From the NCBI RefSeq assembly GCF_001653715.1, contig NZ_LWHQ01000038.1, forward strand, positions 62,001-126,000: a DNA stretch of 64,000 nt, written 5' to 3'. The translations under genes were made by a program, and so were the position numbers. The first letter of the stretch is position 1; the number at the start of each line of letters is the position of its first letter. The notes under the pieces were generated by a model. That model did not search any database and was not told the DNA's origin. It was given only the letters and a program-made list of their open reading frames with translations. The stretch comes from Methylobacterium platani (GTDB lineage Bacteria > Pseudomonadota > Alphaproteobacteria > Rhizobiales > Beijerinckiaceae). Of the stretch, positions 41,836 through 48,040 are shown in pieces.

Positions 41836-42691
41836 GACAGTCGCAGCCTCGTTCTCCAATCGTAATCCCGAGGTCCCATGCGGCCGGGTCGGAAGGAGAC
41901 TGGAGCTGACCGTGCCGTCGCCAGGATGATCATCGGCCGCCGTCGAGGAAGGCTTCCTATCCCGTTAGGTCCGCGGACAAGATCATCCCAAGTTTCCGAA
42001 GGACGGACCGTCGGAATGCCATCGTCGACGTCCCTTGAACTGGTTTCATGTCCAGCCTCTTCGATCAAGACTGATCCTGTCAATCAGCCTAGTACAGGGC
42101 CAGCCAGTCAAGTCACTGCCGAAGCTAAGTTTTATATGTGTCACAACGTCAAAACGTTGAGGCCGCCGGACGGAGAATCATCATCTCAACAGCAGCTGTC
42201 GGGTTTTAAGCGGCTATTCAAGTGGTTTCGCCCATTGGTTCGCTGATGGCGCAGAGCAGTCGGCCGTTCGCTCGTATGGGGCGTCCGCTTTTCCGGTTTC
42301 GCCACCCGAAACCGGACTAGCTGGAAACCACCCAAGCCGGTCGCCCAAGCTTAGGCTGAACTGCCCGGAAGCGGACGTTCCCAATGCCTGCTTATGACCC
42401 AAAGCGGCTCCTCACAAACTATATCAGGAATGTCCGGTTGCGAGGATTTTCCAGACATTTGATTTCATGACAGGCTCCTTGACATTCGCTGCGTCGCCGG
42501 GCTCTGGCGTCAAGTGCATCAGCGCCGAAGGCTCTTCTGGCTGTCAGGAACGGGTCGTTTTTCTTACATGCCAGTTCATGTGATGGAATGACCGTTGGGG
42601 GCATGAGCCGCGCGAAGGCGCGCCATTCCCCTAGCTGTTCACGCGCTCGCTCTGCTCCTACCAAAGCCATCGAGCCGTTGACGGAGTGGGC
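41836..42691. other. 856-bp AT-richer intergenic stretch
   Basis: No supported gene. A short frame at 42136-42246 (MCHNVKTLRPPDGESSSQQQ and on) faintly recalls the start of DUF2277 proteins but is too short and diverged to call. The lower GC here suggests an island-internal junction between the signalling genes and the nickel locus. Confidence 0.45.
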
Positions 42692-43165
42692 ATGCAGCGC
42701 ATCACGATCACCATCGACGACGAACTGCTGGCAGCGGTGGATCGTCTCTGTACCGAACGCGGCTATGGTAGCCGCTCGGAGGCCGTGCGTGACCTCGTCC
42801 GCGATGCGGTCGCCCCATCCCAAGGCGATCAGGCGGGCGCTGCGCCATGCTACGGGACGCTGAGCTACGTCTACAATCATGGCACCCGCAACCTGGCGCG
42901 TCGTCTCACCGATGAAGGACACCACCACGGGGTGTCCATCGCCAGCATGCATGTGCATCTGACCAGAGACGATTGCCTGGAGGTTGCGGTGCTGCATGGA
43001 TCTGTGCCGGCCATGCAGGCTTACGCCGATCGCATCGTCACCCAGCGGGGTGTGCGCTACGGCCACCTGCACCTCATTCCCGAGAACAGCGCCGAGCCGG
43101 CCAACCAGCCGCACCCGCACCCGCACCCGCACCCGCACCCGCACGATGACAACGCTGACCACTGA
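42692..43165 (+). CDS. nikR: Nickel-responsive transcriptional regulator with His-Pro tail
   Basis: 157 residues from the ATG at 42692 (acggag upstream). N-terminal ribbon-helix-helix (MQRITITIDDELLAAVDRLC, GSRSEAVRDLVRDA) and C-terminal ACT-type domain with the nickel-site pattern VSIASMHVHLTRDDCLEVAV (His-x-His and Cys) and a preceding HHH. The tail carries five to six HP pairs encoded by hexamer repeats at 43110-43143, an extra metal-binding-like extension. It probably represses the downstream receptor when nickel is plentiful. Confidence 0.95.
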   Translation: MQRITITIDDELLAAVDRLCTERGYGSRSEAVRDLVRDAVAPSQGDQAGAAPCYGTLSYVYNHGTRNLARRLTDEGHHHGVSIASMHVHLTRDDCLEVAVLHGSVPAMQAYADRIVTQRGVRYGHLHLIPENSAEPANQPHPHPHPHPHPHDDNADH

Positions 43166-43187
43166 GGACCGCCGGCCACAGCCGGAG

Positions 43188-43215
43188 GTGTGAACTTTGC
43201 GTAGATTTCTCATAC
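43188..43215 (+). promoter_or_regulatory. NikR operator
   Basis: GTGTGA, 16 bases, TCATAC. This differs at one position from the known NikR operator GTATGA-N16-TCATAC. It lies between nikR and the TonB receptor gene, 8 bp before the first possible start of the latter. Confidence 0.85.
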
Positions 43216-43222
43216 GCGGGAC

Positions 43223-45430
43223 GTGCGAGGGGCACGCCTCGATGCCGCTTCTGGAACGCCATTGGCCCGCTCTACCTTGTCCTCTGCCCGCGGGGTGCGC
43301 CGATACAGCCTGCTCAGCTCCGCCAGCGTCCTGCTGATTGCCTCCCACGCCTGGGCCGCGTCGGCGGAGACCGAGACCGCCGACACCATCGCGCTCTCCG
43401 AGATCACGGTCGCACCGGAGGCACCGGCCGCCACGACCTCGGGCACACCTAACGCCAGCGCCGGCTATGTCGGCGGCGTCACCGGCGTCGGCGGTGCGCT
43501 CCGGCCTGTCGATGCCGCGAGCGCGGGCATCATCACGGGCGCGCAGATCAACAGCCGCCCGGTGACCCGACCCGGCGAGGTGCTGGAGGAAGTGCCGGGC
43601 CTCATCATCACGCAGCACTCGGGTGAGGGCAAAGCCAACCAGTTCTTCCTGCGCGGCTTCAACCTCGACCACGGCACCGATATCGCCATCAACGTCGACG
43701 GCATGCCGGTGAACATGCGCACCCATGCCCACGGCCAGGGCTACGCCGACCTAAACTTCCTGATCCCCGAGCTCGTCGGTGCGGTCGAGTTCCACAAGGG
43801 CCCGTACTTCGTGCGCGACGGCGACTTCGCCTCGGCCGGCTCGGTGCGGATCGACTATCTCGACAAGCTCAACCGCAACATCGCGCTGACGACGCTGGGC
43901 AGCTTCGGTCTCAAGCGAGCCCTCTCGGCCGCCTCGGCACCGCTCGGCGCGGGCAACCTGCTCGTGGCGGGCGAGGCGCAGACCTATGACGGCCCGTGGG
44001 TGGTGCCTGATACCCTCCGCAAGTTCAACGGCGTGGTGCGCTACAGCCAGGGTACGCCGCTCGACGGCTTTGCGGTCACCGGCATGGCCTACTGGGCCAA
44101 GTGGAATGCCACCAATCAGATTCCCGAGCGGGCGGTGGCGGAGGGGATCATCGGCCGCTACGGCACCCTCGACCCGAGCGATGGCGGCGATACCGGGCGC
44201 TTCTCGCTGTCGGGGCGCTGGAGCCAATCGGATGACAGCGGCATCACGCGGGCCTCGGCCTACGTGATCCGATACCAGATGAACCTCTGGAACAACTTCA
44301 CGTATTTCCTCAACGATCCGGTCAACGGCGACCAATTCCGCCAGCGCGACAGCCGCGTGCTCGGCGGCGGTGAAATCTCGCGCGTGTTCCAAAGCGACCT
44401 GTTCGGGCTCGCCATGGAGAACGAGATCGGCGTGCAGACCCGCACCGACGACATCCGGGTCGGCCTGTTCAACACGACGGCGCGGCAGTATCGCTCGACG
44501 GTACTGGACGACCGGGTGCTGGAGGCCAGCGCCGCGTTCTACTATGAGAACCGGGTGCGCTGGACCGACTGGCTGCGCACCAGCGTCGGCTTCCGGGCCG
44601 ACGGCTACTATGCCGATGTCCGCTCCGACACACCGGCGAATTCGGGTCGCGCCCGCGACGGCATCGTCAATCCGAAGCTCGGGGCGGTGTTCGGGCCGTG
44701 GCGCGACACCGAGCTGTACGTGAACTATGGCGGCGGCTTCCATTCGAACGATGCCCGCGGCGTCACGGCCACCGTCGATCCGGTCAGCCCGCTGTTCAAC
44801 GTGTCCCGCTCGCCGTTCCTGGTGCCCTCGACCGGCTACGAGGTCGGGATCCGCAACCGCTCGATCGCCGGGCTGGAAACCTCCCTGGCGCTGTTCCGGC
44901 TCGATTTCGCTTCCGAGAACCTGTTCCAGGGCGACACCGGCACCACCGAGCCGAGCCGGCCGACACGGCGGTTCGGTATCGAGTGGAGCAACCATTACGC
45001 CGTCACGCCCTGGCTGGCCCTGGAGGGCGACCTGACGATCACCAACGCCCGCTTCGCCGACCGCGACCCGGTCGGCCGGCGGGTGCCCGAAGCGCCGACC
45101 ACGATCGCGTCGGCGGGCATCACGTTCGGCGAAGGCCAGGGCTGGTTCGGCTCACTCCGATTCCGCTATTTCGGGCCGCGCCCTCTGATCGAGGACAACT
45201 CGGTGCGCTCGAAGCCGACCGCGCTTCTCAACGGCCGGGTCGGGTACAACTTTGATAACGGCGTCAGCCTCTCCCTCGACGTGCTGAACTTGACCAATGC
45301 CAAGGCGGATCAGATCACCTACTACTACGTGTCACGCCTGCCGGGCGAGGAGGCGGGCGGCGTCGCCGATCGCCACTTCCACTCGGTCGAGCCGACAGCC
45401 GTGCGGCTGACCCTTGCCGGCCGGTTCTGA
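43223..45430 (+). CDS. TonB-dependent outer-membrane receptor, probably for a nickel complex
   Basis: Up to 735 residues. A signal peptide lies at about 25-46 (VRRYSLLSSASVLLIASHAW A), so translation may begin at a later GTG or TTG (43298 or 43262) than the GTG at 43223. The plug domain includes RPGEVLEEVPGLIITQHSGE and FFLRGFNLDHGTDIAINVDG; the rest is a 22-strand type barrel ending in an aromatic C terminus (RLTLAGRF). The NikR operator just upstream points to nickel or a nickel chelate as ligand; known TonB receptors of this kind exist in Helicobacter. Confidence 0.9.
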   Translation: MRGARLDAASGTPLARSTLSSARGVRRYSLLSSASVLLIASHAWAASAETETADTIALSEITVAPEAPAATTSGTPNASAGYVGGVTGVGGALRPVDAASAGIITGAQINSRPVTRPGEVLEEVPGLIITQHSGEGKANQFFLRGFNLDHGTDIAINVDGMPVNMRTHAHGQGYADLNFLIPELVGAVEFHKGPYFVRDGDFASAGSVRIDYLDKLNRNIALTTLGSFGLKRALSAASAPLGAGNLLVAGEAQTYDGPWVVPDTLRKFNGVVRYSQGTPLDGFAVTGMAYWAKWNATNQIPERAVAEGIIGRYGTLDPSDGGDTGRFSLSGRWSQSDDSGITRASAYVIRYQMNLWNNFTYFLNDPVNGDQFRQRDSRVLGGGEISRVFQSDLFGLAMENEIGVQTRTDDIRVGLFNTTARQYRSTVLDDRVLEASAAFYYENRVRWTDWLRTSVGFRADGYYADVRSDTPANSGRARDGIVNPKLGAVFGPWRDTELYVNYGGGFHSNDARGVTATVDPVSPLFNVSRSPFLVPSTGYEVGIRNRSIAGLETSLALFRLDFASENLFQGDTGTTEPSRPTRRFGIEWSNHYAVTPWLALEGDLTITNARFADRDPVGRRVPEAPTTIASAGITFGEGQGWFGSLRFRYFGPRPLIEDNSVRSKPTALLNGRVGYNFDNGVSLSLDVLNLTNAKADQITYYYVSRLPGEEAGGVADRHFHSVEPTAVRLTLAGRF

Positions 45431-45463
45431 GACCCGAGTTCCCTACCTGATAAGGATCTTCGC

Positions 45464-45655
45464 ATGCGCACCCTCGCTGTCTCGATCGGATTGCTGACGG
45501 CTCTTTGGATCGGCTCTGCCGCGGCGCATGGCTGCCATCACGGGTGGCAGCAGGCCCCCGCGGAGGGCTGGCACAGCCACGGCCTCAAGTGCGATGCCCG
45601 CAAGGGCCTCGGCGTGTCGCGCCGCGGCAAGGGTCACGCCCGCCGGGCGGCGTAG
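45464..45655 (+). CDS. Small exported His-rich protein, 63 residues
   Basis: Starts MRTLAVSIGLLTALWIGSAA AHG with cleavage after AAA. The mature peptide begins HGCHHGWQQAPAEGWHSHGL and contains two cysteines and several histidines, then a basic tail. Found 33 bp after the receptor gene, so it likely belongs to the nickel operon and could bind nickel in the periplasm. A perfect hairpin terminator follows. Confidence 0.75.
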   Translation: MRTLAVSIGLLTALWIGSAAAHGCHHGWQQAPAEGWHSHGLKCDARKGLGVSRRGKGHARRAA

Positions 45656-45682
45656 CATCGAGGTTCGAAACGCGAGACCGTG

Positions 45683-45715
45683 CGGGCATCGGGTTCTCCG
45701 ATGCCCGTCGGTCGT
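45683..45715 (+). terminator. Intrinsic terminator of the nickel operon
   Basis: Perfect 10-bp stem (cgggcatcgg / ccgatgcccg) with a gttct loop at 45683-45707, then tcggtcgttt. It lies 28 bp after the stop of the His-rich protein gene. Confidence 0.75.
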
Positions 45716-45899
45716 TTCTAGAGCCGAGCAGCTTCGCCGCTTCGAGAGCCGCTCGACGCGTCGATCAAACAGTGCAACGGGCCCGGACCGGCACGGTCCC
45801 GGGGATGCTTGGGCCCTGGACTCAAAGCAGATCTCTGCCCCGTCCGAACCCGGGCAGACTGGATGCCGCCGGACGTGCGACGTCGGCCGGCCGCGGCGC

Positions 45900-46646
45900 T
45901 CATGCGTGCATCGCCAGCATCCAGACCGCCATGGCGACCATCATCAGGTTCTCGGTCAGCGAGACGAAGCCGAGCGGCACCTTGCTCGACCCGCCGACGC
46001 AGGCGCACTTGATCTCGCGCTTGTCGACGTAGACCGCCTTGAACACCGAGACGGCCCCGATCGTGCCGATGAACAGGGCAACCGGGATCGACAGCCAGTT
46101 CAGGGCTCCCGCGACCATGAGGATGCCGGCGAGGCCTTCCAGGAACGGATAGGCGTAGGCGTAGCGGACCCAGCGTTGGCCGAGCAGGTCGTAGCCCAGG
46201 AACATCGACGAGAAGCTCTCGACGTCCTGCAGCTTGAGGAGGGCGAGCACGCACATGCTGAAGGCGATGAACCACTCGGCCGCGCGCATCGTGAACGGCG
46301 TGCCGGTGACGGCATAGCTGGCCGCCAGCGCCATCAGCGCCGTCATGGAGAACACCGCGACGACCGGCGTGTAGGTCGTCGCGTTCGGGTCGTTCGCCAT
46401 CGTGCCGAAGCGACGGCGCAGGTCGTCGTAGCCCCCGACGCGCTCGCTGTCGATGAAGGTCTGGGGCGTCGACTTGACGTCGTGCTCGGCCTTGAAGCGG
46501 TCGGTCTCCTCGCGCGTGGTGAGCCAGTGGTCCTCGACCACGAAACCCTGACGTTCGAGCAGGTCCTTGGCCTTCAGCCCGTACGGGCAGAGGTGCTTGT
46601 CCATCACCATGCGGTAGAGGACGGCCTTCTGGGCGGTGGCTGGCAT
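45900..46646 (-). CDS. Glutaredoxin-MauE membrane fusion protein
   Basis: 248 residues. The N-terminal 80 residues are a glutaredoxin domain with an active-site-like CPYG (MVMDKHLCPYGLKAKDLLER) and TPQTFID. A MauE/DoxX-like membrane domain follows with helices at about 98-118, 125-142, 165-185, 190-207 and 225-245. A later ECKCAC-like motif (REIKCACVGGSSKVPLGF) is typical of MauE proteins, which help mature disulfide-rich proteins. Role here probably periplasmic thiol chemistry. Confidence 0.85.
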   Translation of the reverse strand: MPATAQKAVLYRMVMDKHLCPYGLKAKDLLERQGFVVEDHWLTTREETDRFKAEHDVKSTPQTFIDSERVGGYDDLRRRFGTMANDPNATTYTPVVAVFSMTALMALAASYAVTGTPFTMRAAEWFIAFSMCVLALLKLQDVESFSSMFLGYDLLGQRWVRYAYAYPFLEGLAGILMVAGALNWLSIPVALFIGTIGAVSVFKAVYVDKREIKCACVGGSSKVPLGFVSLTENLMMVAMAVWMLAMHA

Positions 46647-46715: not shown

Positions 46716-47108
46716 CTACCGGCCGTGCCGCTTCAGCCACGCCTCCATGTCGGCAATCTCCTTCTCCTGGTCGTCGATGATCGTCTGCGCCATCGCCCGG
46801 GTCTCGGGGTCCTTGGCGTGCGTCAGCGCGACCTTCGCCATGGCGACAGCACCCCTGTGGTGCGGGATCATGTGCGTGCGGAAGTCGACGTCCGGGTCGC
46901 CCGTATAGGCGACATCCATCTCCTTCATCATCGCCGCGTCGGCGGCCTTGAACTCGACGGTAGAGGCGGTGTCCTTCGGGTCCGGCTTCGTCTTGCCCAT
47001 CCCGTGCCCGGGCATGGAGCGATGGTCGTGCGACGCCTGCGCGAGGGCGGGACCGGCGAGGCCGGCCGAGATGAGGACGATGGCGGCGAAGGTGCGAGGG
47101 GCGGTCAT
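46716..47108 (-). CDS. Exported DUF305 (CopM-like) protein
   Basis: 130 residues from the ATG at 47108. Signal peptide to about residue 24 (IVLISAGLAGPALAQA). The domain has DVDFRTHMIPHHRGAVAMAK, the His-His pair conserved in DUF305, and a helical C terminus. Some relatives bind copper. A His/Met-rich stretch (SHDHRSMPGHGMG) follows the signal. A paralogue is encoded at 55904. Confidence 0.88.
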   Translation of the reverse strand: MTAPRTFAAIVLISAGLAGPALAQASHDHRSMPGHGMGKTKPDPKDTASTVEFKAADAAMMKEMDVAYTGDPDVDFRTHMIPHHRGAVAMAKVALTHAKDPETRAMAQTIIDDQEKEIADMEAWLKRHGR

Positions 47109-47195
47109 GGATCGGTCTCTGCTTCGAATGGGAATCAAATCGAACGGGGCCGCCCGGGACGCCCCCGGGTGAGGCCAGGGCGTGCGCGGACTTCG

Positions 47196-47441: not shown

Positions 47442-47891
47442 TCACGCGAAGGTTCGGGGAGGCCTGGGCAGGGCTTCGGGTCCGGCGCCGGTGCGAACGG
47501 GGGCGTCGCGCGGGACCAGCCTGACGGCCCGGAACGGGATCGGCGCCAGGGCGGGCGGGCCGGGCAGAATGCCGGCGGCACAGCAGGCCATCGTTCCGCA
47601 GCAGCGGACCCGGCAGGGGCCGGGGCAGCAACCATGGTCCCGGACGGGCGCGACGACGGTGATCCGGAGCGCGGTCTCCACGTAGGCCAGAGGCTCGGCA
47701 CGGGCGACATGCCCGGCAGGATTCGCGGCCGGAACCGCTGCCACCGAGGCGGTCCGCGTGTGCGTCGCAGAGCCGGGACCAGCGTGATGCGCGTGTCCCT
47801 TATGGGCTTGGGCTGCCGGCGGCACGAAGGCGGCGAGGATCAGGAGGATCACCGCCGCCAGCAGGCGCACGATCGGCCGATCGGGGATCAT
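47442..47891 (-). CDS. Exported cysteine-rich protein, 149 residues
   Basis: From the ATG at 47891: MIPDRPIVRLLAAVILLILA and FVPPAAQA, a signal peptide. The mature part has a His-rich start (HKGHAHHAG) and a dense cysteine cluster (GCCPGPCRVRCCGTMACCAA). Long Pro/Arg-rich tail. Probably periplasmic and metal- or thiol-reactive; not a recognised family. Neighbouring DUF305 and MauE-like genes fit a metal/thiol theme. Confidence 0.6.
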   Translation of the reverse strand: MIPDRPIVRLLAAVILLILAAFVPPAAQAHKGHAHHAGPGSATHTRTASVAAVPAANPAGHVARAEPLAYVETALRITVVAPVRDHGCCPGPCRVRCCGTMACCAAGILPGPPALAPIPFRAVRLVPRDAPVRTGAGPEALPRPPRTFA

Positions 47892-48040
47892 GAGGCTGGC
47901 TCGCACCTACTCCGGTCGCAGGATCATGCCCGTCTGCCGGGCGTGACCGTTCACCGGGAAGTTTGGTCGTGGGCTCGGAGTTTCAAGGGCCGGCGCACCT
48001 GTCCATCCGACGACCGGCATCGTCGTCGGCATGGTCGCAA

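Follow-up and report, generated by a model that had tools for sequence, protein, structure and literature searches.

Predictions of TonB-dependent nickel and cobalt receptors under the control of NikR or of a B12 riboswitch reportedly go back to Rodionov et al. 2006. NikR sites are known ahead of nickel uptake genes and B12 riboswitches ahead of cobalt uptake genes, as passages of PMC7689651 and PMC2773004 describe. Regulated receptors named in passages of PMC2773004, PMC7142613 and PMC7689651 include BLL6948 of Bradyrhizobium, Daro_1684 and META2_0097 of M. extorquens AM1. The Bradyrhizobium receptor is listed as a predicted nickel receptor (PMC7142613, in part), and META2_0097 is named as a further candidate cobalt receptor (PMC2773004, in part). 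DUF4198 proteins are described in part of PMC12537917 as exported, with an N-terminal His, a dissociation constant (Kd) for Ni(II) of 18 nM, and with TonB receptors and NikR_C among their gene neighbours. The TonB receptor gene icuA of M. extorquens is accompanied by icuB, whose 243-residue product is placed in COG5266 (passages of PMC2732905 and PMC2773004), and higher icuAB expression improves cobalt uptake (a passage of PMC2732905). Here we describe a locus in a 64,000-nucleotide stretch of Methylobacterium platani (contig NZ_LWHQ01000038.1, positions 62,001 to 126,000; ‘the window’), in which a nikR gene, a NikR-type operator, a gene for a TonB-dependent receptor and a gene for a small, putatively exported peptide follow one another. 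A sequence-only reading of the window had proposed a NikR site, a TonB receptor and a small exported peptide, and all of these parts are found on the plus strand.

The operator, GTGTGA-N16-TCATAC, is a palindrome with one mismatch to the E. coli NikR consensus, as had been claimed. The position at which the sequence-only reading let this feature begin, 42692, marks where the nikR gene starts and not where the site does. With up to two mismatches, GTRTGA-N16-TCATAC occurs in the window only at 43188-43215, and the same place is the sole zero-mismatch occurrence in the 7.02-Mb genome. At one mismatch, the genome contains 9 strand-wise matches to the operator pattern, compared to 4 for a reversed control pattern; the one-mismatch places adjoin unrelated open reading frames (ORFs) and were rejected as further NikR operators. 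In shuffled windows, a mean of 1.29 matches was found at two mismatches, and 38 of 100 reached at least the 2 strand-wise matches seen. A single operator site in one window is weak evidence alone and not significant. We accept the operator because it is conserved ahead of related receptors, and not because it is rare in one window.

Receptor relatives (E up to 1e-100) were found in 70 of 111 genus genomes. We examined 80 receptor or peptide loci and classified 78 of them (L066, L070-L146); two places, receptor fragments with a peptide behind them, stand outside the 78 (L147 and L148), and the locus set does not include the receptor fragments G283:C28 and G277:C279. A NikR box (up to two mismatches, 400 nt upstream) lies ahead of 15 of the 78 receptors. 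A nikR relative was found near 14 of these 15 boxed receptors and near none of the other 63; the distance is at most 400 nt in 13 boxed loci and about 3 kb in L074, where the protein is 51% identical. The boxed locus without a nearby nikR, L137, carries a 28-nt box identical to that of a receptor on the AM1 megaplasmid. Outside the genus, 20 of 23 rows were compared (G636, G647 and G471 were left out), and a box (up to two mismatches, within 700 nt) was found at 11 of the 20 receptor relatives, six of which have a divergent nikR. Seven other relatives of the 20 have a NiCoT gene upstream.

The window NikR scores 170.9 bits against the NikR model NF002815 of NCBIfam (cut-off 83, E 1.5e-50), and both RHH_1 and NikR_C of Pfam were matched above the cut-off (E 9.9e-22 for NikR_C). 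Against TIGR02793 it reaches 156.8 bits, under the family cut-off of 175.45. The protein is full length and aligns with E. coli NikR (PDB 1q5v) over 1-131, and the HHH, HVH and DDC segments of the E. coli protein are kept. H76, H87, H89 and C95 are the nickel ligands of E. coli NikR, and with these segments kept the window protein retains the nickel ligands. The His-Pro repeat tail of NikR (43110-43165) varies in length: the ORF comprises 159 residues in the window, against 149 in L071 and L072.

Comparison of all 78 genus loci revealed a NikR box at 15, a cobalamin riboswitch at 61 (11 by Rfam, 50 by motif search only), neither element at L088 and L090, and both at none. Using Rfam, no cobalamin riboswitch was observed at any of the 15 boxed loci. 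A FastTree tree built from 95 receptors (L137, L138, L147, L148, L178 and L179 left out) requires 6 changes of the NikR label, and well-supported branches force at least 4 of them. L074, with a NikR box, and L075, with a riboswitch, share 91-97% DNA identity in most 150-nt intervals of the receptor gene, compared to 28-51% upstream. Since the receptor is nearly identical and the upstream region is divergent, the control elements were swapped before nearly the same receptor. Among the 78 loci, box and riboswitch are mutually exclusive and have been exchanged at least 4 times ahead of one receptor family. The M. platani genome itself carries a second receptor copy followed by the peptide (L073, G000:C74:50000-63000), and this copy is under a cobalamin riboswitch. 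Its receptor is chimeric: the 5′ part is of the riboswitch type, and the stretch from about +1400 to beyond the peptide matches the NikR-type gene of G108 at 95-100% identity. FecBCD-like importer genes of the ATP-binding cassette (ABC) type lie on both sides of this receptor.

The genes around the receptors also point to nickel and cobalt. A HoxN/HupN/NixA-type permease lies behind the receptor in 8 loci, in 6 of them at most 51 nt from the receptor end, and the permease protein of L074 matches TIGR00802 with an E value of 5e-126. Urease genes lie at most 5 kb from the receptor in 5 loci (UreG and UreC were confirmed for G049), and the M. platani genome encodes a urease alpha subunit and NicO-family genes on two contigs. 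The reading of regulator and receptor as a nickel operon, made before from the window alone, agrees with the restriction of nikR to boxed loci; the assignment of the receptor to nickel seems further backed by the permease and urease neighbours and by the boxes outside the genus. By comparison, a NikR-controlled nickel operon is well supported as a prediction, and it would be of an already known kind. In L124, about 0.7 kb upstream of a riboswitch-type receptor and between it and urease genes, a HupE/UreJ-like ORF was recognised by eye, with a His directly after the signal.

The ORF behind the window receptor begins 33 nt past the receptor stop. It encodes 63 residues, as the sequence-only reading had stated; residues 1-21 have the appearance of a signal peptide and are followed by HGCHHGW, leaving a predicted mature form of ~42 residues. 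Invariant in 7 peptides are A19, A21, H22, G23, C24, H25, W28, G35, W36, H37, S38, H39, G40 and C43, as well as parts of the basic tail. The AM1 peptide keeps the conserved H, C, G and W positions and has SRW in place of SRR. The invariance of A19, A21 and H22 fits a predicted A-x-A cut that would expose a His-Gly-Cys-His N-terminus. The amine, amides and thiolate of a free His-Gly-Cys at the N-terminus might together coordinate Ni(II). The ratio of nonsynonymous to synonymous substitution (dN/dS) was calculated by NG86 on the 42 codons of the mature part, dS being saturated in some pairs. Pairs with the window copy gave a dS of 0.07-1.24 and, where dS is >0.1, a dN/dS of 0.05-0.27; over all pairs dN/dS reaches up to 0.38. 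Judged by this coding constraint, the ORF is a gene under selection. No Pfam or NCBIfam family was matched at E up to 1, including the DUF4198 model (PF10670), and a CbtB-like small cobalt protein, which we had considered as a candidate, was rejected on the same result. Among PDB sequences no relative was found (best E 1.2).

Ten of 111 genus genomes gave strong peptide matches, at 13 places altogether, and two plasmid records did so as well. One record, NZ_CP043628.1, corresponds in length and position to the G203 C2 place; the other is the AM1 megaplasmid, on which the peptide follows a receptor that looks intact and has a zero-mismatch box. NZ_CP043628.1 lists no gene for the peptide, but this record describes its own gene table as incomplete. 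Weak matches (E about 3e-4 to 0.01) were rejected, the remainder having 8e-19 or better; they make up 4 of 14 genus genomes (L035-L038), 3 of 6 in the family sample (L024-L026) and 8 of 11 in the order sample. Those inspected (L024-L026) lie in unrelated ORFs, and for the others the score was the only ground for rejection. All accepted peptides are confined to Methylobacterium/Methylorubrum, and beyond the genus none was accepted in samples of 199 genomes of the family, 397 of the order and 367 of the class, each of which includes genus members. At E up to 1e-4, the M. platani genome is the sole match in the class sample (1 of 367). A contig scan, which reaches close relatives only, returned 7 peptide loci, all in Methylobacterium or Methylorubrum. 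In none of the 20 receptor loci outside the genus was the peptide found.

Within the genus, 5 of the 13 places follow an intact-looking receptor, four of them boxed (G000 C38, G108, G261 and G049 C4) and one under the riboswitch (G000 C74). Two lie behind a broken or partial receptor (the boxed G218, and G203 C1) and four behind a degraded remnant or only the last codons of a receptor (G203 C2, G202, G199 and G296). The G298 peptide is a truncated copy without its own signal sequence, and for the G049 C8 peptide no receptor trace was detected within 1.5 kb. This last copy (G049:C8:208549-208737, L027) is diverged, with 52% identity and a TTG start. The peptide is real and conserved within a narrow group, and probably binds nickel or cobalt.

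Table 1. Features of the predicted nickel locus in the window.
Feature	Coordinates	Strand	Evidence
nikR, Ni-responsive ribbon-helix-helix regulator with (His-Pro)n-rich C-terminal tail	42692..43165	+	Pfam, NCBIfam, alignment with PDB 1q5v
NikR-type operator GTGTGA-N16-TCATAC	43188..43215	+	Pattern search; conservation ahead of 15/78 genus receptor loci
TonB-dependent receptor, predicted Ni/Co substrate	43223..45430	+	Pfam Plug and TonB_dep_Rec_b-barrel; gene context
Gene for the 63-residue exported peptide (signal peptide predicted 45464-45526, mature part predicted 45527-45652)	45464..45655	+	ORF, alignment, dN/dS
Perfect 10-bp hairpin 3′ of the peptide gene, possible transcript end	45683..45707	+	Read by eye in the sequence

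The start codon of the receptor is uncertain (GTG 43223, TTG 43262 or GTG 43295), and a structure model of the receptor from 3 sequences gave no usable fold (mean pLDDT, the predicted local distance difference test, 25.3). Conserved residues of the receptor include H132, H150, H170 and H507. The terminator-site listing omits the hairpin and names one other site, at chance level. Next to the operon, the minus strand encodes a glutaredoxin-MauE fusion protein (45900-46646) and a CopM-family metallochaperone (46716-47138). A further minus-strand ORF of 154 residues (47442-47906) has a signal-like start followed by HKGHAHHAG and may be another exported His-first protein; it had no Pfam or NCBIfam match.

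We rather favour the view that the locus is a NikR-repressed nickel-acquisition unit consisting of the receptor and a metal-binding exported peptide. When cytoplasmic nickel is scarce, NikR would leave its operator at 43188-43215 and a joint receptor-peptide message would be made. The TonB-dependent receptor would then bring a Ni(II) complex, or a Co(II) complex, through the outer membrane. The Sec pathway would export the peptide, and its mature form of roughly 42 residues would bind the metal with the N-terminal His-Gly-Cys-His end and the WHSHG..C segment. It might buffer the metal or hand it to an inner-membrane carrier, as a miniature counterpart of DUF4198, the exported nickel binder with an N-terminal His that follows other receptors in the genus.

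Several observations weigh against this view. The receptor is broken, a remnant or missing at 8 of the 13 peptide places, and one of these 8 peptides is itself truncated. The peptide follows 5 of the 15 boxed receptors and is absent behind 9, the remaining locus being cut by a contig end; among the 61 riboswitch receptors it follows the one in M. platani and none of the other 60. Up to a distance of 3 kb, no box accompanies the orphan peptides L012, L014 and L015, and L150 has a mere two-mismatch match 1533 nt upstream; for the remaining orphan copies, <3 kb of upstream sequence could be inspected. No nikR was found in the L137 stretch or in the AM1 megaplasmid stretch (11.5 kb). Of the kinds of permease and ABC carrier searched for, none lies next to the window receptor, and no inner-membrane nickel carrier was recognised there; a search of 42400-45800 for sigma-70-type promoters gave no match. 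AlphaFold predicts a helical signal segment and otherwise no confident fold for the peptide (mean pLDDT 54.7), and metal binding leaves the conserved basic tail unexplained. The distribution argues against a strict partner of the receptor. It speaks for a peptide that is useful on its own, or for receptors lost recently, the losses being undatable here. The earlier proposal of a periplasmic nickel-binding partner of the receptor holds in part: a metal-binding exported partner is plausible by the DUF4198 precedent, and the same trio does recur at some boxed receptors, but a regular, nickel-only partnership is not what the loci within and outside the genus show.

The peptide might instead be an envelope buffer or detoxification sponge for nickel or cobalt, used independently of the receptor and sharing its operon for regulation only. 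Intact peptide ORFs behind mere receptor remnants (the four places listed above), the copy in G049 C8 and the low dN/dS also in pairs that include orphan copies would agree with this, although the constraint may pre-date the receptor losses, which cannot be dated. NikR repression would, however, switch off a sponge at high nickel, and nearly all peptide copies sit behind a receptor or a receptor remnant. We consider the sponge unlikely. The orphan copies also speak against the peptide being a helper in receptor assembly, and a role in copper or zinc binding has to face the control elements recognised ahead of the peptide operon, namely NikR box or cobalamin riboswitch. The basic tail, which metal binding does not account for, would be in favour of such functions other than nickel binding, as would the nearby CopM-type gene, which lies on the opposite strand, and the N-terminal His, which according to part of PMC12537917 is also typical of the copper proteins CopC and lytic polysaccharide monooxygenases (LPMOs). 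Taken together, a function unrelated to nickel seems quite improbable. Very improbable in our view is a secreted, ribosomally made metallophore that returns Ni(II) or Co(II) via the adjoining receptor. The position directly behind a TonB-dependent receptor, the small size, the predicted export, the residues of metal-binding type and the lack of a confident fold would suit it, but a Sec signal would keep the peptide periplasmic, no dedicated exporter was recognised beside its gene, and most boxed receptors do without it.

A bolder form of the acquisition unit is conceivable, and we regard it as doubtful. Here, the peptide would be a dedicated Ni(II)/Co(II) hook made of the free N-terminal His, backbone amides and Cys3 of HGC, and would be among the smallest genetically encoded metal carriers on the TonB pathway. 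The metal of the receptor would be set by the control element ahead of it, NikR operator or B12 riboswitch, and not by the protein. Recombination would have swapped these elements repeatedly, and in M. platani a nickel-type receptor end together with the peptide would have been placed under a B12 riboswitch. Little is known of how nickel and cobalt are handled between an outer-membrane receptor and an inner-membrane carrier. A peptide of ~42 residues that is encoded next to a regulated receptor is within reach of chemical synthesis, which makes the metal hand-over step directly testable, and the natural nickel/B12 control swaps on nearly the same protein (L074/L075) offer a test of whether receptor or regulation decides the metal. 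The setting is a plant-associated bacterium with a nickel-sensing switch, a nickel/cobalt receptor of the outer membrane and, right behind it, a previously undescribed exported peptide with many residues of metal-binding type, which probably has a part in handling the imported metal. In titles and abstract openings of the literature, no paper on such a peptide behind a NikR-controlled receptor was found, and the passages of PMC6901981 and PMC7908345 consulted do not describe an operon of the window type.

Like the known regulated nickel and cobalt receptors, the window receptor is TonB-dependent and belongs to a family with a NikR site or cobalamin riboswitch and, in some genomes, NiCoT permease neighbours. 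Unlike them, it is followed by an exported peptide, in few genomes, and the repeated exchange of control elements within one genus was not met in the descriptions of these receptors consulted. META2_0097 is probably, from its number and position, the AM1 megaplasmid receptor; since that receptor has a NikR box, nickel would be the likelier signal for it. FrpB4 of Helicobacter pylori can be set beside the window receptor by its role, TonB-dependent nickel uptake over the outer membrane (PMC7689651 and PMC6901981, in part). The icuAB operon of Methylorubrum extorquens AM1 likewise pairs a receptor with an exported partner within a single operon, and does so in the same bacterial group, but IcuA-like receptors form a branch distant from the window receptor, with 25-29% identity only, and our guess that IcuA belongs to the branch of the window receptor failed; IcuB, of 243 residues and in COG5266, would be a DUF4198 protein.

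Searching the 111 genus genomes revealed DUF4198 in 41. Among 31 DUF4198 loci, 6 show such a distant receptor relative in a short stretch, in several genus loci the ORF ahead of DUF4198 is icuA-like and 703 residues long, and His follows an A-x-A site in all 12 DUF4198 ORFs inspected. Rfam detected no cobalamin riboswitch in 10 DUF4198 loci, several of them icuAB-like, and the idea that the ISMex4 insertions upstream of icuAB (a passage of PMC2732905) break a cobalamin riboswitch was dropped on this result. The Rfam 5′ ureB RNA model matches beside icuAB-like loci (L219 807-1104, L221 5479-5776), which suggests that urease genes may adjoin the icuAB-like operon, too.

The N-terminal hook motif of nickel superoxide dismutase is HCxxPC. 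This enzyme binds nickel by its N-terminal His (PMC12537917, in part), and like the peptide with its HGCH it has a Cys near that His; no relatedness is claimed. DUF4198 (PF10670) is closer to the peptide in its setting, with an export signal followed by a mature N-terminal His and with TonB receptor and NikR neighbours (PMC12537917, in part). The folded domain of DUF4198 spans about 200 residues, whereas the ~42-residue peptide has no Pfam match and carries a conserved Cys. By gene position, the peptide fills the slot that is held by DUF4198 or a NiCoT permease behind other receptors, and by this analogy it may represent a new form, of very small size, among the exported metal binders with an N-terminal His.

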